NCBI RefSeq assembly: GCF_905475395.1
Contig: NC_058339.1
Location: 79,264,520 to 79,328,519, forward strand
Length of the DNA: 64,000 nucleotides
Source: Chrysoperla carnea
Lineage: Eukaryota; Arthropoda; Insecta; Neuroptera; Chrysopidae
Reading direction: 5' to 3'
Positions 25,837-50,882 of this stretch are shown here, piece after piece. Within the stretch, counting starts at the first letter, position 1; every line of letters begins with the position of its first letter. The notes under the pieces were generated by a model. It was not told the DNA's origin, searched no databases, and saw nothing but the letters and a program-made list of their open reading frames with translations. The position numbers and the translations under genes were made by a program.

Positions 25837-25857
25837 TAAATTAAAAAGTATTCTTAA

Positions 25858-26048
25858 GCCATGTAAATTTTCCAAATCGAAAATTAGTATTTAGAAAGAA
25901 TTCATTATTTTTATAGCACAGTTGAAAAAATTTTATTTGGAGATAACAAAAATCCACATTAATCCATTATCAGATAATTCATACGTAAATGTTAATTTAC
26001 ATTCTATTTTTCCATTAATCCAATCTATAAATGCTCCCGAAACTGCAC
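25858..26048 (-). pseudogene. Decayed second copy of the carboxypeptidase terminal exon downstream of gene A
   Basis: Clear homology to the 191-nt terminal exon, closest by eye to gene B's distal copy (32029-32219): a TTAG acceptor, then a frame reading AVSGAFIDW, KLTFTYEL, followed by a one-base insertion after DNG and a premature stop. The first base is G instead of A, so splicing from gene A exon 7 would make Cys rather than Tyr at position 248, and the ELRD motif has become ELSD. Homology continues past the frameshift to the exon end. It therefore cannot encode a working C terminus and is best read as a fossil of a multi-exon array once present in gene A. Confidence 0.85.
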
Positions 26049-26690: not shown

Positions 26691-29679
26691 TTAATACCCC
26701 AATTTTTCCGCTTGTGAAATCAATGCTTCAAAAGAATCAACAATTTCTTTTCCACATGGAGTTATTTGGTTTGATGGTAAAAGAAATCCGAATCGACCTT
26801 TATCCCGTAACTCATACGTAAATGATAATGGTGTCTTTACTACACCTAATACCCAATCCATAGAACTTCCTGATGCTCCATCTAAATTTTTTAGATGTTT
26901 AATCTTTTCAAAAATTTGTCCAAAGAATTTTACTTACAAATTGTTTCGTAAACTGATCCAACAACGTACGATGTATTAAAACGAGTAAATAATGCCATGG
27001 AAGCTGCATTTCCAATTGATTGCTGTAAATAATCGGCAAAACATTGGCAGTTTTCAAATAAATAAAAAAATACTGAATTTTGAAAACCAAAATGAACATT
27101 TACTATACAACAGCTATTCTAATCTAAATTCCTTACCAAATCGTCATTATTCTCAGCATGCTCCGATGTATATCCATAAGGGAAAAGTAATAATTGCGAA
27201 TACGAATGGAATGCAACATACATCCATAAATTATCTTTTTGCGATTTAATAAAATCAGACAATGCTCTTGTTTCAGGTTCAGAAAAAGCAGAAGGTCCAC
27301 CATATGTTTCGGAACATGGGTCACTACTGACTCCAATCTCTAAAATTACAAGTACCGTTAATAATTACTGCCCAAAAACAAATGGACGTAAAAAATTAAC
27401 GAGGCTTGGGAATTTCAACTTTATGTTTGCCACAGTGATTTCTGTTTAGCTTTTTGTATGTAAGTATGTTCTTCCCAAAAGCGGCCATTACTTTACGGGC
27501 ACCTTCTATAAAATTTATTTTAACAGTCAAACTCTCGAAAAAATAGTCTCAAATTTTAAACATTATGTAATCACGTAGAAACTTTAAAACATTCACTTTA
27601 AAACGGATACTTCTTTTACAGCAAATATACAAACCCCTCCAATGAAAATCAAAATTACGATTTCCATCAGTACCAAAACATCGGCTTCCATTATTAGGCT
27701 GTCGAGTTTTACGCCATAAGCGATCCTAAAAATACAATAGAAGTTATAGTTTGTTTCCTTCCATGTTTTTGCCAACCGCACTAACCGTGGTATGTGTATA
27801 TTCATAGCCATCTGGATTCACAACTGGAAATATATACCAATTAAATTCATCAAAGAGATTTTGTTGGTTGAGATTCGAATTATTCAAAACTCGTGATAGA
27901 ATGAACATAGTTGTGGCTGGAGCAATCCATTCTCGAGCATGTATTCCACCTTCAATTATTATAGTACGAGTGTTTTGTTTACGGGAAATATGAAGTCCTT
28001 TGATTTTACGACCTTCATAACTTTTACCAATTGTAACGACTTTCGCTATATCTGGATATTGTGCTTCCAATTTATACAAATGTCTGTATATCTACAAATA
28101 ATAATTTGATGAAATTTTTTTCGGGGAAGAGAAAGTGTTTAAATGTTGTTGAAACTGTCATCATTCGGGAATCTAATTTCCACGACCAATACCATAGTTA
28201 TCTTGGTCTCGGAGTTGAGTCTCAGTCTCGGTCTTGCAAAATTAATATCAATCTTGGTCTTGCTCAATCAAGTCTTATTTTTGATCTTGCTTCAACAATT
28301 ATTTGAAATTTAAAGTTTTGATTGAGTCTTGTTGTATTATTTTATAATTTTTGAGTCTTACTTTTAATAATCATCCAAGAGACTTGGCATTGTTGTGATC
28401 GAAGTGGTACTATGGCCTTGGTCTTGGAAAGTTTGTAAGACCAAGACCAACAGAGGGAGAACGTGATATATTTTAGAAAGCTAAAAGATTGCTGCTTGCC
28501 TAAATAATAGTAATGTGAGTTCAGTAAATCTGGCAGAATTACATCGAACACGAACTACTCTTGTAAGAGTTTACTCTTCCTAATAGTCAGTCTCGCCCCA
28601 AAATATGTAAAAATTCTGACGCCATTTATCAGTTTTGTTTCAGTTTTGCATCTTTTATCGACAAGTTAGATTTAATTTTTGTCAAACTTACAACGTCTAG
28701 TCGATAGTAATACAGAAAATTGAATTCTAAACCAATTCTATGATTTGGTTTGTTCACTTTTACTTCATCATCAATTAACCTAGAAAGTTTTTTTTTTTTA
28801 TGTAAGTAAAAAAAATTTTTTTTTTTTATTTTATTTCAGAACTTACTTTTGTCCATTTTCAATAAAAACTGAGATATCTAAATCATGTTTTTCCACAAAT
28901 TCATGAAACCGTTGCTTTTGTTTTGGTGAAATCATAATATCCACATATGATTGTCTAACTTTAGTCCATAAGTCCACACCCTAAAAATGATTTTACGAAA
29001 CTGATTTAAAAAAAAACCGATTTCCCGATTTCACCTAGAATCAACAGGAACCAGCAGGTTTATAAACGTTAAGCAAAAAATTCAATGAATAGGTATCATT
29101 GTTGAAACTGGAAAAACTCAATTCCGAACTTCACATATTTGGAAGTACGCTTACGTACCAGAACTACCAACACGCCGAAAATGTCTAAGGAAGTGGAAAT
29201 ATTTTGCAACTATAATCACAAGAGCAAAACTAGAAACTCCAAAAATCATTCTCTTGAAATTACCAACAACTTTTGTGCAAAATAATTTCTCGAAAAGCCA
29301 ATGCATTAGGCAAATTTCGATACAATCGAGGAGTTTTGGGCATTATTCCTTGTAACAAAACGCTTGATCTGCTGTACTTTATCCCCCCCCCTTCCAGAAT
29401 TATTGACCATTTATTTTGATACACCTAATATTTGTATTGAATAATATTTGGAAAAATCACCATTTACTTTAGAAGACGACAATAAATTATATTTGTCTAT
29501 ATAAGTTTTTTAAAACTTATTTTTCATACCTCATTCTTTCCTAACTCATCAATTAATTTCATTTGTGCTTCATTTTTTGGTTTAATTCGATACACTGTAT
29601 ATTCATCATATCGTTCACGTTTCGCTTCGATCCAAATCGCACTTGTCGTTAACAATAAAACACATATTATTGACTTCAT
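26691..29679 (-). CDS. Gene A: secreted M14A zinc carboxypeptidase (8 exons, 415 aa)
   Basis: Exons (minus): 29530-29679, 28847-28980, 28692-28779, 27786-28091, 27635-27725, 27137-27339, 26938-27022, 26691-26881; 1248 nt including stop. Predicted to remove C-terminal residues from peptides, probably as a secreted gut enzyme. The start gives a signal peptide ending WIEA, then a propeptide (DEYTVYRI...IENGQKLIDDE). The catalytic domain shows GGIHAREW (zinc ligands His69, Glu72), DRLWRKTR (Arg127), GNRNF (Asn144-Arg145), paired cysteines (SRCF and DPCSE), FHSYSQ (His196, Tyr198), ETIYGAS (Tyr248, its codon split by the last intron) and YELRD (Glu270). Position 255 is Met, predicting A-type preference for hydrophobic residues. 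The exon 5 donor is a weak GTTTGT. Exon lengths equal those of gene B. Splicing was inferred by eye from GT-AG sites and frame. Confidence 0.93.
28092..28691. repeat. Intron 3 of gene A with TCTTGG-rich imperfect repeats
   Basis: The intron contains many imperfect copies of (G/A)TCTTGGTCTTG-like words (about 28200-28290 and 28415-28450), including an inverted pair CCTTGGTCTTGG/CCAAGACCAAC. Simple-repeat-derived sequence with no coding role seen. Confidence 0.5.
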
Positions 29680-32028: not shown

Positions 32029-32219
32029 TCAGTAACCCAAATTTTCAGATTCTAGAATTAATCTTTGGAATGAATCCATTGTTTCTGAACCAGTTGAAAA
32101 AATTTGATTGGGTGGTAACAAAAATCCATAATATCCTTTATCACGTAACTCATAGGTAAATGACAATTTACATCCTATTTCTGCATACACCCAATCCATT
32201 GAGGCTCCCGAACATGAAT
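32029..32219 (-). CDS. Gene B alternative terminal exon 8d (most distal)
   Basis: Open 191-nt exon homologous to the last exon of the M14 carboxypeptidases here: CATTTAG acceptor, then AT to complete Tyr248 (T|AT) from exon 7, 62 residues and TGA. It keeps CSGASMDW (Cys250, Ala253, Met255), FTYELRD with Glu270 intact, and GFLLP. It differs from its sisters in the tail ([11 protein letters not shown] instead of IIPCGEE-VDS), losing the cysteine shared by the other copies. It is followed by the only AATAAA close behind any of the four copies. Open frame, acceptor and phase suggest it is used, either by splicing exon 7 directly to it or in a longer transcript; not proven from sequence. Confidence 0.75.
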
Positions 32220-32839
32220 CTAAATGAAAAAAATTAGATATATAAATTTTTGAAACTCTTAAAATGCGTTATATTGTTTTTAATTCACGATATAAGTATA
32301 AATCTTGAAAAATTTCATAAATAAAAAGTGGAAATTCGTGTTCAACTGCCAATATTTTTTTAGCTTTTATGATCAAATTCCTTCCCTTTGTGGGAAAACT
32401 TTGTATTCAACAATCCAATTAATCTTTGATTAATCACCTTATTACCCGACTGCCATGTATTTGTTTTGTTTTTCGCGCGTATCTTGTATGTATGTGTATA
32501 TATTTGTTTGAAATTTTTTTATCTCCTCGTATCTTCCAAATGGTTTGATGGATTTCCACAATTAAGCTATCGTTATATTCGTCTTAAAAACCCAAGTTTT
32601 CTTTGGGTAGGTATTTGATAGTAAATAGTAATACTATACGTTAATAAAAAGTATCAAATATATCGAATAGGGTAGCAAATTATAAAGAAATTAAAAAGGG
32701 ATTACAAAAATATTTATGTTATATGTTTAAATTTAATTAGGAATAATAAATTGTTTTCAAAATTCTAATATAGTATAATAAGAGGGTTATAGTGACGGTA
32801 CACTAAAAAGTCTAAAATAAAATAAATAATTTAAAAAAA

Positions 32840-33007
32840 CAAAAACCCGTCAAAACAAGTCCAGTAGTTTACATAGAGACTTCAACAGTCGGGAAAATTA
32901 AAATCTAGACCGGTCCAAATCTTACAAAAAATGAGCCCCGACTGTTAAAGACGCTACTGGACTTGTTTCTTTCTTTTCAGATTTTATTAAAGACAGTCGG
33001 GTTTTTT
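32840..33007. mobile_element. MITE-like element 'CCGACTG/AAGTCCAG', copy 1
   Basis: About 168 bp with nested inverted repeats: outer AAAAACCCG.../...CGGGTTTTTT and inner AAGTCCAGTAGTTTACATAG against ...CTACTGGACTTG, plus ACAGTCGGG/CCCGACTGT. Related copies lie at 36517-36679 and 40209-40356. This copy lies between gene B terminal exons 8d and 8c. Confidence 0.8.
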
Positions 33008-33287
33008 ATTTTTTATTTTTTATTTTATGTTATAATTTAACAATTTTTTACCAAAAACAAACCAAACTATTAAATTTTACAAAAATTACTCTACAAAATA
33101 TGGCCTTATATCGCGAGAGTCTGTTTTAAAGACATCGAGAGAGTCGAGCTTAATTTTGCCGAGCGGCTTACAAAGGTCAGCTTTAAAGTAAACCAAGTAC
33201 GACTTAATTCCTAGCCGAATATATGTGCAAAGGATTTCCATAGCCTTGTAATTAGGTTAACGAAAAAAAAAAAATACATTTTGTGGA

Positions 33288-33293
33288 TTTATT
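33288..33293 (-). terminator. Candidate poly(A) signal AATAAA after exon 8c
   Basis: AATAAA on the minus strand 121 nt beyond the TAA of exon 8c. Only variant TATAAA hexamers were seen within about 75 nt after exons 8a (34549-34554) and 8b (34028-34033). Confidence 0.4.
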
Positions 33294-33413
33294 AAATATT
33301 TTTTTGAAAAAAAATAACTAAAATTTAGAAATAAAAAAAAACATTAAAAAAAATTTGTAACAATTAACAAAAATTTTGAAAAAAAATTAAAAATAATTTT
33401 CCCAAATTGTAAA

Positions 33414-33604
33414 TTAATATCCCCGTTTTTCAGATTCTGATATCAATACTTCAACAGAATCAACTATTTCCTCTCCACACGGAATAATTTGATCTGCTGG
33501 TAAAAGGAATCCGTGACGACCTTTATCACGTAGCTCATACTCAAATGTTAATTTACAATCAGTTGCACCATGCACCCAATCAATAGTTGCTCCCGCAGCT
33601 GGAT
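33414..33604 (-). CDS. Gene B alternative terminal exon 8c
   Basis: Open 191-nt terminal exon in the same phase (acceptor GGTTTAG, then AT completing Tyr248). It encodes AAGATIDW (Ala250, Ala253, Ile255), TFEYELRD (Glu270 kept), [15 protein letters not shown] and ends GY-stop. The notable change is Glu at position 268, usually Thr in CPA and in the sister exons; 268 lines the S1' pocket, so an acidic side chain there could favour basic C-terminal residues. A 49-bp stretch (33457-33505) is identical to exon 8a (34664-34712), which points to recent gene conversion. Function as an alternative exon is inferred. Confidence 0.75.
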
Positions 33605-34104
33605 CTAAACCGGTAGTAAAGTAAATAATTAAAAGTTTTCAAAACTTTAAATCAACTTTTAAAGTTTTAATTTTTTTTAAATTTTTTCTTTAATGAAAAA
33701 GTTTAATCACAAATCCACAAGTATTGGAATTTAGTCGTTGCGATTTCACAATTTTTAAATTCGGAAATTAAATCAATTTTTTTTTTTATTTTTTATAATA
33801 AGTCCTTAATTTGTTAAATCACCCTTTTTGCGGCTGATGTAATTAAACTTGGCAACAATTATCTAGCCGACTTCTTTAAACAACGACATTATCAGTATCT
33901 GATAATTTCCAAAGACAGATGAGAAAATAATTGAAAATTATTTGGTTTTTTTGCTAGTTTACTTCTCAAAAATTGCAAATCGTTAGGTAAACAAAAAAAA
34001 AGAATCACGTTTTACTTATTAAAATTTTTTATAAAAATATATAAAAAAAATTTAGAAAACTTGCTAAAAAATTTATCCCAAAATTGTTACAAAAAAAATT
34101 ATCA

Positions 34105-34295
34105 TTAATATCCTAATTTTTCAGCTTCCGAAGTCAATGCTACAAGAGAATCTACTACTTCTTCTCCACACGGAATAATTTGTTTTCGTGGTAAAAAAAA
34201 TCCCCGGCGCCCTTTGTCTCGTAGCTTATAAGCAAAAGCTAGGGGTATCTTATGAACCCCAAGTACGTAATCCATAGAAGATCCAGATGCTCCAT
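34105..34295 (-). CDS. Gene B alternative terminal exon 8b, catalytic Glu270 replaced by Lys
   Basis: Open 191-nt exon in the same phase as the other terminal exons, preceded by TTTTTAACTTTAG. It encodes [16 protein letters not shown] and [18 protein letters not shown], ending GY-stop. The general base Glu270 of the ELRD motif is Lys (codon AAG), Trp257 is Tyr and Thr268 is Ala. A protein ending with this exon should bind but not cleave, or be inactive. The frame is otherwise intact with no stop, so this is either a recent loss of function or a deliberate non-catalytic isoform. Of all terminal exons it most resembles gene A exon 8 (both [12 protein letters not shown]). Confidence 0.75.
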
Positions 34296-34620
34296 CTAAA
34301 GTTAAAAACAAAATAATCTCAACTTCAAATTCAAGAGAGAAATTTCGAGAGTTGATTGTGGTTAGCTGAATTTTTTTTCTAATAAAGCCAAAAGTTAGAT
34401 TTAACAATTAGAAGCCTGTTAGTTTAAAGTTAGAAATACTCAAGTGAGTTATCCCAGAAATTAGCCATGTGCAAAAATTATATTGAAAAAACAGAAAAAT
34501 TTTTGGGTTAACAATAAAAGAACAAGCGTGGATTAATTACCAAAAAATTTTATATACAAATATTACAACAAAAATTTAGAAAAATAAAAACATTGTCAAA
34601 ATTTTGAAAAAAAGTTACAA

Positions 34621-37600
34621 TTAATATCCCAATTTTTCAGCTTGAGAAATCAATGCTTGAACCGAATCAACTATTTCCTCTCCACACGGAATAATTTGAT
34701 CTGCTGGTAAAACAAATCCGTGACGCCCTGTATCCCGAAGTTCATAAGTAAATGTTAATGGTGTTCCTAAAACACCTCTAACCCAATCCATTGTTATTCC
34801 TGTTGTAGCATCTATAATTTGGATTTATAGATAATTTAGAAGTAATACACAAAAACGTTTTTGCAAAATGTTTTCAAAAATGTTTGTACTTACAAATTGT
34901 TTCGTAAACAGGTCCAACAGTGTAAGTTGTATTAAAACGGACAAGTAAGGCTGTAGCGGCTGCATTTCCAATTGTTTGCTGTAAATTAAAAATTTTATTG
35001 AAAGGCTTTGTAACAAAATTAACAAGATTACACACATATTATTAACTCTTATAGTGAAAATTCCTTACCAAATCGTCGTTATTCTCTACATGCTCTGGTG
35101 TATGACCATATGGGAATAGTAGTAATTGAGAATATGAATGGAATCCGATATACATCCATAAAGTATCTTTTTGCGTTTTAATAAAATCAGACAATGCTCT
35201 TGTTTCAGGTTCGGAAAAAGCAGAAGCTCCACCATATGATTCGGAACATGGATTGCTACTGGCTCCAATCTCTAAAATGAAAAATATATATTCTAGATAA
35301 CGATCTATAATCATAAACTGGATATTTTGAATGGTATTTCCTATAGGTGGGCATATGGTGTATCCTTTATGTTTCCTTATGTTTCCTTAATGACTTTCTT
35401 TTTGAAAATGATCATATTTTTCAATTCTCTTTAATTAAGATTACTCGGCAAGTTATTTGCCTTTATAGTTTACGCCACTGTATCATAAATAAGCATCAAT
35501 TATATAACCGAAAGGCTTTGACATTTAAAATTGTATGCAAGCTTGTGAACAAATAATAAATAAAATGAGATAATGTGGCAAAGAAATAAAAATAAAAATT
35601 CGATCAGTTGAAAAAATTGCTTGTCTCCAGCTCAAATAACCGAACACTTGGATAAGGAGCTTGGCATGAATCCAAAGGGTCCTGATTCGATTCCTGATGC
35701 GAGTTTATTCTTTTGCAAGTCTCTTGAATTAAGTCGGATATAACTTTCAAAATACCCTGGTTTGAAAATATGAAAAATACATACCCATCCAATGGAAATC
35801 AAAATTACGATTTGCATCAGTACCAACACACCGGCTTCCATTATTTGGTTGTCGTGTTTTACGCCACAAGCGACTCTAGAAATTCAAAATTCATAGTTTA
35901 AATTTTTTTTAAATATCGATTTAAATATCCTTTCCCAATTTAATATCTACCTACTAACCGTGGTATGTGTATATTCATAGCCATCTGGATTTACAACTGG
36001 AAATATATACCAATCAAATTGTTCGGAGAGATATTGTTGCAGAAGATTCGAACTGTTCAAGAGTCGTGACAGAATAAACATAGAAGTGGCTGGTGCAATC
36101 CATTCACGAGCATGTATGCCACCTTCGATAATTATTGTACGATTATTTTGCTTACGGGAAATATGAAGTCCTGTGATGTTACGACCTTCATAACTTTTAC
36201 CAATTGTAACAACTTTTGCTACACCTGGATATTGTGCTTCCAATTTATACAAATGATCGTAAATCTATAAAAAAATTTTAATATAATATCTTAATTTTTT
36301 GTTTAACTTATAGAAATTGATTTCTATTTTTTAGTTCAGCTAGTTACAAACGCGTGTTTTTTTAACTATTATTTATTTTCTACTTTTTAGTTCAGCTAGT
36401 TTTCAGATATGGAAAAAATCGTTTATCCTGAAGATGATGGATAAACCTATTAAATTATTGTATTTTCATCGGCCCTTGAAAATCAAGCTAATATAAAATA
36501 AAGAATTAAAAGAATCAAAAACCCGACTGTGATAAATAAAATCTGAAAAGAATTAAACTAGTCCAGCAGTTTACATAGCAACTTTAACATTCAGAGCTCC
36601 ATCTATTAAAGTCGGTATGTAAACTACAGGACTAATTGTTTCTTTCGTTTCAGAATTTATTTGAGGCAGTCAGCTTTTTGATTTTTTTTAATTATATATT
36701 TTATCTTAATATTTTAAGTGTCCCGGCCTCCAAAAATATTTTTATGTACTTTTTGCTTACATATCTAAATATACTGAAGTTTTTGTAACTTACAACATCA
36801 AGTCTATGATAATCCACAAAATTGAACTCTGAGTCATCTTCTTGATTTCGTTTGCTCATTTGTACTTCCTCATCAATTAACCTAGAAAATTACGAATATC
36901 GATTAACAAAAATATATGAATATTAATATTAAGGTAGTTTTCTTGCTACAATGTTGTCAAAAAATTTTGGATTATATGCGCGGTGAGAGTAGATGGATTG
37001 TAGTGAAATTAGGTATCATTTTAGTCTTATACTGTACCAATGGAGACTTTATACATGTATAGTTGTCTTTCTGTTACATAACTCAATACTCTAGTATAGA
37101 TGTTTCTGTTCAACTTTTCAGCTTGTACATTTTTCCATAAATTAATTACTTTTGCGTTATTATATATCTCAATAATGAAAAGGTCAATAAAAATGTTTTC
37201 TTTTTTCTCTCTCCGTGTTAATTATTCGAATAATGTTAGACTTTTAGAGTTAAAAACGGTCAATCGACTTCAAATTTTGATGGTAATTGTGTTAAAATAT
37301 CTTTAATAAGTATACAAAACTATGCCTATAACAAGGCAACTACCTGAATTTCCAGAACTCACTTTTGAACATTCTCAATGAAAATTGAGGTATCCAAATT
37401 ATATTTGTCGACAAATTCATGAAACCGTTGCTTTTGTTTTGGTGAAATCATAATATCCACGTATGGTTGTCTTACTTTAGTCCATAAATCTAAACCCTAA
37501 AAATTTTTTTTTGATTTCAATTAAAAAAGTAAAAAAAAAATAAACTAAAATAAATAGAAGTGTTTGATAAAAGCTTGAAGCCGAAGACTTTAAATATGTC

Positions 37601-38273
37601 ATAAAACAGATGCGCTAAAGATATGAATTATGAGTAATTGAAATGAGTGAAATTTTAAAAAGTATATCAAATATTTGAATGAGGCTCAATTACTAATATA
37701 TGTGGGCAACAGATATAAAAGATGTAGGTAAGAGATATCCAAATTCTAAGACGAAATGTCCTTTAAATTTTTTTTTCGACGTACTGTTAATGATTCAGAT
37801 TTAATTATATTTTTAATATTTAAATATTTCTCAAAGAGAACGTAAATTTTTTTAGGAAGTTGTAGGAAATACTCAATATTTTTTCTCGAACAACAATTTT
37901 TTGCAATATTCTGTCGTTCTGAATGTATTTTGACCCTCGTGTTGACTTTGACTTCGGTATAAAAGACACTTCGTGAGAGTATGTGGAGGGTTTTGGATTT
38001 AAGTAAGGAATTCATGGTTTAAGTTTGAATCGATGATTTATAAAAACGCTGCATAAATATCAAAGAAGTATTGACTTTTAAAAACTTTAAGAGCTTTAAT
38101 TTTGTATAGTATATTTTTCTTACCTCATTCTTTTCTAATTCATCAATTAATTTCATTTGTGCTTCATTTTTTGGTTTAATTCGATACACTGTATATTCAT
38201 CATATCGTTCACGTTTCGCTTCGATCCAAATCACACAGGTCGTTAACAATAAAACACATATTATTGACTTCAT
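34621..38273 (-). CDS. Gene B: secreted M14A zinc carboxypeptidase (8 exons, 415 aa with proximal terminal exon 8a)
   Basis: Exons (minus): 38124-38273, 37363-37496, 36794-36881, 35959-36264, 35785-35875, 35069-35271, 34894-34978, 34621-34811; every exon has the same length as in gene A. The protein starts with a signal peptide ending WIEA and a DEYTVYRI propeptide. The catalytic domain has GGIHAREW (zinc), SRLWRKTR (Arg127), DANRNF (Asn144-Arg145), SRCV and NPCSE cysteines, FHSYSQ (His196, Tyr198) and, in exon 8a, TTGITMDW (Thr250, Ile253, Met255) and YELRD (Glu270). All catalytic residues are present, so the 8a form should be an active A-type enzyme. Three more open copies of exon 8 follow downstream. 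A TATA box lies about 70 bp upstream. Very similar to gene A, its sister in tandem. Confidence 0.93.
35634..35712 (+). repeat. tRNA-like (SINE-type) fragment in gene B intron 5
   Basis: Contains a B-box-like GATTCGATTCC and a pattern 'CTTGGCATGAATCCAAAGGG' that matches 44775-44870 ('CTTGACATGAATGCAAGAGA', then GGGCTCGACTCC). No cloverleaf closes properly, so it is a tRNA-derived repeat relic rather than a tRNA gene. Confidence 0.4.
36517..36679. mobile_element. MITE-like element 'CCGACTG/AAGTCCAG', copy 2, in gene B intron 3
   Basis: Shares AAAAACCCGACTG, AGTCCAGCAGTTTACATAGC, the GTAAACTACAGGACTA counterpart and TTTCTTTCGTTTCAGA with copy 1. It lies entirely within the intron between exons 3 and 4. 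Confidence 0.8.
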
Positions 38274-39567: not shown

Positions 39568-39795
39568 CTGAGCAACGCAAAGTAGTGGAAATGTGTTTAT
39601 CAGCTATATATATGTATGTTCCTATAGATTTGTTTTAACCTTGGGAGAGATAATGAATGGCATTCATGAAAATTGATGAATTTCCTGAGCAACGCAAAGT
39701 AGTGGAAATGTGTTTATCAGCTATATATATGTGTGTTCCTATAGATTTGTTTTAACCTTGGGAGAGATAATGAATGGGATTCATGAATTTCCGCC
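39568..39795 (+). repeat. 117-bp tandem duplication
   Basis: The unit starting CTGAGCAACGCAAAGTAGTG is at 39568 and again at 39685, with only a few differences (for example ATATGTATG vs ATATGTGTG). It abuts the repeat arm at 39796. Non-coding. Confidence 0.85.
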
Positions 39796-40204: not shown

Positions 40205-40208
40205 AAAA

Positions 40209-40356
40209 TACAAGTCCAGCAGTTTACATAGCGACTTTAACAGTCGGGACCCATTAAAATCTAGACCGCCACAAATATTCCCAATAATGAGTCCCGATGT
40301 AAACTGCTGGACTTGTTTTTTTTTTTCATTTTATATTTAACTCAGTCGGCTTTTTT
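40209..40356. mobile_element. MITE-like element 'CCGACTG/AAGTCCAG', copy 3
   Basis: CAAGTCCAGCAGTTTACATA mirrored by TGTAAACTGCTGGACTTG, followed by CAGTCGGCTTTTTTGATTTT. The left outer end (AAAAACCCGACTG) is missing where the TATACCATG arm ends at 40204. Confidence 0.8.
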
Positions 40357-50283: not shown

Positions 50284-50882
50284 ATGTTAGAGACTACTTT
50301 AGTCCATGTTTTTCGCTTTTCCGAGGCTCTGCATATTTCTTCTAATGTCATTCCAGCCCAAGCTTTTAGATTATCCATCCAGCTAATTTTTTTCCTTCCA
50401 ACTGGTCGTTTAGCTGGAATTTTACCAAATAAATCCACCTTGATCATATTATATTTGTTCTATCTGATAATATGCCCAAAGTAGCTTATTTGTCTTTTTT
50501 TGACGGTCTTGCTCAGTTGTGCTGAAAGTCCAATAATTTTAAGCACTTTACTATTTGTTGTGTATGTGCTCCATGAAATTTTTAGGATCTTTCTATAGTA
50601 CCACATTTCAAATGAATTTATTGTTTTTATTATATTTGTCGACAAGGTCCACGATTCACAAGCGTAAAGAAAAACTGACCAAACGTAACATTTTAGAAAC
50701 CCCACACGTATACTTTTGTTTATTTTTTTATCCGTTAAGAACTTTTTTAGCTTCAAAAATGCACTCTTTACTTGCCCTATCCTTGATTTTATTTCAACAG
50801 ATGAGTTAGTGAACCTGAATTGACCATTTTCATTGTGACATCTATATATACTGCAGTAATCATTTATATATTTCCCAACCAT
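50284..50882 (-). pseudogene. 5'-truncated non-LTR retrotransposon (reverse transcriptase C-terminal part)
   Basis: The minus strand encodes the C-terminal part of a LINE-type ORF2. Recognisable blocks are EIKSRIGQVKSAF, RVGFLKCYVWSVFLYACE, WTL, EMWYYRKILKISW and KRQISYFGHIIR. An in-frame TAG follows at 50461-50463, and the frame then resumes with GKIPAKRPVGRKKISWMDN and a terminal KTWTKVVSNIP before its own stop near 50284. The polymerase palm with its catalytic aspartates and the endonuclease are absent. The order of blocks is that of arthropod non-LTR elements; the clade is not assigned. Dead copy. Confidence 0.85.

Follow-up and report, generated by a model that had tools for sequence, protein, structure and literature searches.

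By the analogy of their architecture, insect serpin-1 genes are the closest known counterpart of the carboxypeptidase gene described here, gene B of the green lacewing Chrysoperla carnea, found on chromosome 3 within the 64,000-nucleotide (nt) stretch that we analysed (the window; all coordinates are positions in it). Alternative exons at the C-terminal end are reportedly present in Manduca sexta serpin-1. The Pteromalus puparum gene PpSerpin-1 has them too, and in an insect serpin clade 192 of 731 genes have such C-terminal alternatives, with rapid gain and loss of exons (PMC10513286; here and below, statements refer to the consulted parts of the cited sources). Like gene B, serpin-1 combines a constant body with tandem homologous 3' exons that encode the specificity-setting part. 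However, serpin-1 isoforms were seen in transcripts, and several of them as proteins, whereas the endings of gene B are known here from DNA alone; moreover, serpins are inhibitors, whereas gene B encodes a peptidase whose swapped exon also holds a catalytic residue (PMC10513286). In C. carnea, a single gene, which the authors of that study related to PpSerpin-1, yields several venom serpin isoforms by alternative splicing; the species is that of gene B but the protein is unrelated, and neither carboxypeptidase nor M14 occurs in the main text of that paper (PMC12758981).

The first-pass annotation of the window knew of no described case of this kind among M14 peptidases. For last exons of M14A genes this stands, as we found no M14A gene with alternative last exons in a literature search that lay largely outside subscription journals, but it is too broad for homologous alternative exons in the M14 family at large. 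An M14 gene to be compared is Drosophila silver, which encodes carboxypeptidase D and belongs to another M14 subfamily than M14A. Outside the family there are glutathione transferases, for which Anopheles provides one case of alternative 3' exons. Silver is, like gene B, an M14 gene with homologous alternative exons (PMC3228551, PMC4980332), and one of its carboxypeptidase domains, the third, lacks activity whereas others are active, which may be compared with copy 2 of gene B (PMC3228551, PMC4980332, PMC11266112). The alternatives of silver are, however, first exons, which are regarded as multiple promoters, and the gene encodes a three-domain membrane protein (PMC3228551, PMC4980332). Drosophila GSTO2 resembles gene B in that a shared first exon can be followed by one or the other of two 3' parts, each with its own 3' untranslated region, but it differs in fold and chemistry, has two alternatives, and was curated from annotation (PMC4195677). 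In a survey of Bombyx mori carboxypeptidases, the words splice, isoform, and alternative splicing are absent (PMC5000601).

The minus strand carries gene B, an intact M14A procarboxypeptidase gene in which a shared body is followed by four putative alternative terminal exons (Table 1). Exons 1 to 7 (38273-34894) have consensus splice sites and form an open frame of 1057 nt, and the body joined to any one of the four terminal exons gives a protein of 415 amino acids (aa). From residue 19-29 onward, through propeptide and enzyme domain, isoform 1 aligned with vertebrate procarboxypeptidases A1, A2, A4, and B (best E value, 4.5e-81), and thus the propeptide is of the procarboxypeptidase type. The zinc ligands His69, Glu72, and His196 lie in the shared body and hence occur in all four isoforms, as do Arg127, Asn144, Arg145, and Tyr248. 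The four 191-nt exons were found exactly where the first-pass annotation had placed them: each follows TAG, begins with AT, continues in the phase left by exon 7 (donor GTAAGT), and is open to one stop. Also as annotated were the residues at positions 250, 253, 255, and 268, which we take from family knowledge, in carboxypeptidase A numbering, to line the S1' pocket. Catalytic Glu270, which had been assigned to this exon in general, is present in copies 1, 3, and 4, but copy 2 has Lys270 (AAG at 34227-34225). Copies 1 to 4 read Glu/Lys/Glu/Glu at position 270 and Trp/Tyr/Trp/Trp at position 257, differences that the annotation had not listed; its description of exons and residues was otherwise borne out, except for a claimed absence of other exon copies, which is taken up below. 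Asp at position 255 is typical of carboxypeptidase B type enzymes, and it occurs in none of the copies (Met, Met, Ile, Met), position 255 remaining hydrophobic.

Each terminal exon alone scored above the Pfam PF00246 cut-off, which excludes a chance origin of the four, and nucleotide identity among them is 58 to 76%. Tandem homologous last exons in one phase behind a common donor constitute the architecture of an alternative terminal exon array. Copies 2 to 4 were also considered as separate genes, a reading that was rejected because tblastn with gene B revealed no other exon in the spacers; the one such piece, a relic of exon 7 upstream of copy 3, came from another comparison (below). Downstream of the array, tblastn with isoforms 1 and 4 found no further coding exon of gene B (hits above 22 bits). 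The annotation had called the exons mutually exclusive. One ending would exclude the others, since each has its own stop; such clusters, however, are classed as multiple poly(A) sites, and in a true mutually exclusive cluster the adjacent homologous exons are flanked by other exons (PMC3228551). With its own stops and without a further coding exon downstream by tblastn, the gene B array falls outside that definition, although a shared untranslated exon is conceivable.

Probably, then, the gene B body is joined to alternative endings by last-exon choice, giving several isoforms from one transcription unit. The annotation had proposed the same, and one body with alternative endings does fit the anatomy best, but the specificity that it stressed would be only part of the story. 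The 3' end of this secreted M14A procarboxypeptidase gene would have been duplicated in tandem several times, and exon 7 would be spliced to one of the four last exons, all of which have a stop and 3' sequence of their own. The isoforms would have the propeptide, the zinc site, and Arg127/Arg145 in common and would differ over the last 62 residues, a segment that takes in positions 268 and 270 and some of the S1' wall. Splicing to a copy would compete with reading on past it, and we infer that transcripts pass beyond copy 1, that the downstream exons are spliced in, and that specificity changes. Judged by their residues, the endings of copies 1, 3, and 4 would be peptidase competent, and that of copy 2 is predicted to be dead. 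Peptidase specificity is usually thought to be diversified by whole-gene duplication; if our reading is true, exchange of an exon that holds the catalytic glutamate and some of the S1' wall would be a serpin-like route in an enzyme.

The persistence of the downstream copies speaks for this reading. Neutral survival of the open frame was simulated from present copies 2 to 4 (400 runs each), both without and with an assumed rate of insertions and deletions (indels). At 0.1, 0.15, 0.2, and 0.3 substitutions per site, survival was 0.16-0.32, 0.13-0.19, 0.07-0.11, and 0.04-0.07 without indels and 0.04-0.09, 0.02-0.03, 0.006-0.009, and 0.001-0.002 with them, i.e., approximately 4 to 50 times lower. 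Copy 2 stands at approximately 0.35 and copy 3 at 0.26 when their pairwise synonymous divergence (dS) to copy 1 is halved, values that leave the applicable simulation point uncertain; for copy 4, half the gene-body dS between gene B and its neighbour gene C (0.16-0.19) is a bound on the divergence since its split from a dead ending of gene C, the gene C relic. At these estimated divergences, retention of frame, acceptor, Tyr248, and stop in copies 2 to 4 is improbable under neutrality. Selection was further examined with a codon model of the seven endings in the window and the gene C relic (63 codons, two topologies). Genes A1 and A2, which run on past the other endings, were trimmed to 63 codons; in the relic, 3 of the 63 codons were masked as stops, and inserted bases were dropped by alignment to the columns of copy 4. 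The overall ratio of nonsynonymous to synonymous divergence (dN/dS) was 0.14. Purifying selection was observed on copy 2 (branch dN/dS, 0.13; P = 0.001 versus 1 on both topologies) and, weakly, on copy 1 (0.13; P = 0.025 or 0.084 versus 1, depending on topology). The gene C relic branch had a dN/dS of approximately 1.3 (P = 0.003 versus background); by this measure the relic looks neutral and would show the appearance of an unused copy. All branch values are guides, because synonymous changes approach saturation and recombination conflicts with the assumed tree.

Other observations weigh against a choice among four functional endings. On its own branch, copy 4 had a dN/dS of 0.89 or 0.74 on the two topologies (versus 1, P = 0.97 or 0.91; versus background, P = 0.18 or 0.19), and copy 3, with a branch near zero, reached the upper bound (versus 1, P = 0.53 or 0.51; for exceeding background, P = 0.05 or 0.04). 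Thus, the dN/dS comparison that the annotation had proposed as a check was clearly below 1 for copy 2 and weakly so for copy 1, and copies 3 and 4 were indistinguishable from neutral on their own branches. The tests as such draw on 63 codons, affected by some recombination and almost saturated at synonymous sites. Copy 2 is without Glu270, and the body of gene C is intact though its distal ending was lost. A weak proximal acceptor at copy 1 was rejected, as its tract (8 T of 20) lies within the range of the six internal acceptors of gene B (6 to 12); those of copies 2, 3, and 4 have 13, 10, and 13, and the T-rich tracts of copies 2 and 4 speak for rather than against the last-exon reading. Within 300 nt, AATAAA follows only copies 3 (+121) and 4 (+28), and there was no poly(A) pattern beyond chance, with 0.65 to 0.87 AATAAA expected per 300 nt in AT-rich sequence.

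Several of these points would also suit an alternative in which only copy 1 is used and copies 2 to 4 are relics of 3'-end duplication heading for decay. Copy 1 is nearest the exon 7 donor, copy 2 has lost Trp257 as well as Glu270, copies 3 and 4 have the neutral-like branches just described, gene C has a dead distal copy orthologous to copy 4, and the exon 7 relic indicates that duplicated pieces decay at this locus. However, the copy 2 branch value and the retention of frame, acceptor, Tyr248, and stop in all three downstream copies argue against this alternative, to which we assign a minor though appreciable chance. If copy 1 alone were expressed, the locus would be a modest example of how duplicated 3' ends decay.

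Ecm14, a fungal M14 pseudopeptidase of the A/B type, has Lys270 and showed no activity in standard assays (PMC11266112). Copy 2 is like it in that Lys at 270 replaces the general base Glu, but isoform 2 keeps Arg145, where Ecm14 has His, and Ecm14 is a separate gene, whereas copy 2 would be an optional ending of gene B (PMC11266112). Because of this Ecm14-type Lys270 in place of the general base, isoform 2 is predicted to be catalytically inactive, unless the Lys codon is a polymorphism or an error in this one assembly. The codon is one base from a Glu codon, and here a polymorphism or consensus error would be in keeping with an assembly artefact or collapsed haplotypes; for the array itself nothing positive speaks for such an artefact, the identity among copies is far past allelic difference, and the assembly was made from PacBio, 10X, and Hi-C data (PMC10116181), so that this explanation is hardly credible. 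Speculatively, and with the balance tilted against it, one digestive-type gene might give rise to active peptidases with different S1' pockets, one of them with an acidic Glu268, and to a selectively maintained dead isoform that shares the propeptide and zinc site and possibly decoys carboxypeptidase inhibitors or regulates its active sisters. If true, this would allow a direct test of whether an active enzyme can retain a pseudo-peptidase among its optional endings.

The term specificity cassettes, used in the annotation, is plausible for three endings; it does not suit copy 2, which is without a general base, and the pocket segment offers no support for positive selection. The ratio of the proportions of nonsynonymous and synonymous differences (pN/pS) in this segment was 0.54 to 0.81 in the six pairs of gene B copies and 0.47 to 1.10 when each of the four was paired with the gene C ending, the highest value being that of copy 3 versus the gene C ending. 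Positive selection was therefore rejected as a candidate, and on these ratios the segment is relaxed or mildly constrained. Between A1 and A2, 8 of 11 nonsynonymous differences fall within the 20 of 63 codons of the pocket segment, and thus pocket variability occurs outside the array as well.

The copies retain traces of how they arose. In a BLASTN comparison of the array with itself, copies 1, 2, and 3 shared units that run from the preceding intron into 3' sequence, the intron part being approximately 8 nt between copies 1 and 2 and longer for copy 3, and copies 3 and 4 shared 331 aligned nt, including flanks. Copy 3 is close to copy 1 in its 3' part and nearer to copy 4 in its 5' part. The similarity of copies 1 and 3 extends back through a degraded exon 7 upstream of copy 3, which contradicts the annotation's statement that no other exon copies lie between the terminal exons. 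Exon 7 alone scored 17 against this relic, a score reached by 7 of 5000 shuffles, and with flanks it scored 24 (0 of 5000). Of the 913 minus-strand bins of the window, six lie at the genuine exon 7 of gene B or C; the relic scored best among the rest, and with a reversed query none of the 913 reached its score. In an anchored alignment, the gene B query gave a z score of 3.7 (0 of 1000 shuffles) and the gene C query was borderline (53 of 1000); nhmmer with an exon 7 profile of the four genes did not detect the relic. No such relics were found upstream of copy 2, copy 4, or the gene C relic, where 322, 66, and 382 of 1000 shuffles, respectively, reached the score with the gene B query. The copy 3 unit combines a decayed exon 7 with an exon 8 that has remained open, which favours use of the downstream endings.

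Copies 1 and 3 share an identical run of 49 nt (expected number at overall identity, 7.4e-5), and synonymous divergence (pS) among copies 1 to 3 is 0.29 to 0.37 in the 3' parts and 0.54 to 0.70 in the 5' parts. Together, the run and the lower 3' divergence point to conversion of the 3' part of copies 1 to 3; copies 1 and 3 appear to have recombined, and because of their shared run the copies are not independent lineages. The same two features would accord with downstream copies maintained chiefly as recombination partners of copy 1 and rarely expressed, but conversion alone leaves unexplained both the low dN/dS of copy 2 and the upkeep of copy 4, which is without an identical run, and we regard this as quite improbable.

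Gene B is one of four M14 genes in tandem within the window; A1 and A2 have one ending found each, B has four, and C has one intact and one dead. The dead ending of gene C aligned with copy 4 over 309 nt with flanks (71%; E value, 1.7e-42), and on this alignment copy 4 is orthologous to the gene C relic. Since the two align with their flanks, multiple endings would be older than the B/C duplication; most likely, a proximal and a distal ending were already there and were then lost in places. Copy-by-copy orthology between B and C was rejected as a reading of the tree because supports were low in three trees (B2 with C1, 56-66%; B3 with B4, 42-71%), and only the pairing of B4 with the gene C relic, on shared flanks, is claimed. 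Moreover, the dS between B2 and C1 (0.72) exceeds that of the gene body (0.37 over exons 2 to 7, i.e., without exon 1; 0.32 over exons 1 to 7), and therefore B2 and C1 may not be simple orthologs. Adjacent to each other, gene B with four endings and gene C with a living and a dead one form a small natural history of array gain and loss. Exon 1 of B (38124-38273) and of C (29530-29679) are near-identical (dS, 0.07; exons 2 to 7, 0.33-0.46), which suggests gene conversion or constraint. Exon 5 of gene C (27635-27725) has an unusual donor, GTTTGT, and encodes Phe after Cys where gene B has Val (GSRCFGTDG versus GSRCVGTDA); the rest of exons 1 to 7 is open.

When the whole genome was searched with copy 4, there were 16 matches among the best candidates, 8 of them the endings of A1, A2, B, and C and 8 elsewhere. 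In 16 10-kb stretches covering other M14 matches, no gene had more than one ending at 24 bits or above. In the other M14 genes that matched both the exon 6 and the exon 8 parts, the spacing fits the exon 7 part only. On account of this spacing, the intron within the Tyr248 codon appears, among the genes compared, peculiar to this cluster; it is this intron that would make the ending exchangeable. A second large M14 cluster lies on the same chromosome (chromosome coordinates 62304001-62384000), with a different intron layout and with the ELRD-like motif of several endings altered (ELPGGG and similar).

Table 1. Exons of genes B and C and related relics in the window
Feature	Position	Strand	Characteristics
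Gene B exon 1	38124..38273	-	ATG, donor GTAAGA, assembled frame open; start of propeptide; signal peptide likely (by eye)
Gene B exon 2, propeptide	37363..37496	-	TAG acceptor, GTGAGT donor
Gene B exon 3	36794..36881	-	TAG acceptor, GTAAGT donor
Gene B exon 4	35959..36264	-	Zinc ligands His69, Glu72
Gene B exon 5	35785..35875	-	Arg127, Asn144, Arg145
Gene B exon 6	35069..35271	-	Zinc ligand His196; Tyr198
Gene B exon 7	34894..34978	-	Shared donor GTAAGTACA; T of split Tyr248 codon at its end
Terminal exon copy 1	34621..34811	-	Thr250, Ile253, Met255, Trp257, Thr268, Glu270; PF00246 E 2.2e-9
Terminal exon copy 2	34105..34295	-	Ala250, Ser253, Met255, Tyr257, Ala268, Lys270; PF00246 E 3.3e-9
Degraded exon 7 relic upstream of copy 3	~33680..33783	-	Includes ~20 nt of preceding intron; limits approximate
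Terminal exon copy 3	33414..33604	-	Ala250, Ala253, Ile255, Trp257, Glu268, Glu270; PF00246 E 8.8e-11
Terminal exon copy 4	32029..32219	-	Cys250, Ala253, Met255, Trp257, Thr268, Glu270; PF00246 E 3.1e-12
Gene C exons 1-7	26938..29679	-	Gene B paralog, same exon lengths; dS 0.32, dN/dS 0.28 versus B
Gene C terminal exon, intact	26691..26881	-	Glu270 present; branch dN/dS 0.08, P = 0.007 and 0.005
Gene C second terminal exon, degenerate	~25850..26048	-	Tyr248 to Cys, frameshift, in-frame stops

Repeats and a further open frame were also noted in the window. A 19-nt motif occurs five times with at most three mismatches (0.1 expected), at 32852-32969, 36554-36572, and 40207-40319; four of the five form two inverted pairs spanning 113 to 118 nt, one of them in the spacer between copies 3 and 4, and the motif looks like a short inverted-repeat element similar to miniature inverted-repeat transposable elements. 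Approximately 1.3 kb upstream of the gene B start codon, a tandem repeat (39568-39787) has a 117-nt unit in 1.9 copies with 98% matches. On the minus strand at 50460-50882, an open frame of 140 aa reads, by eye, like the C-terminal part of a reverse transcriptase of the long interspersed nuclear element type.

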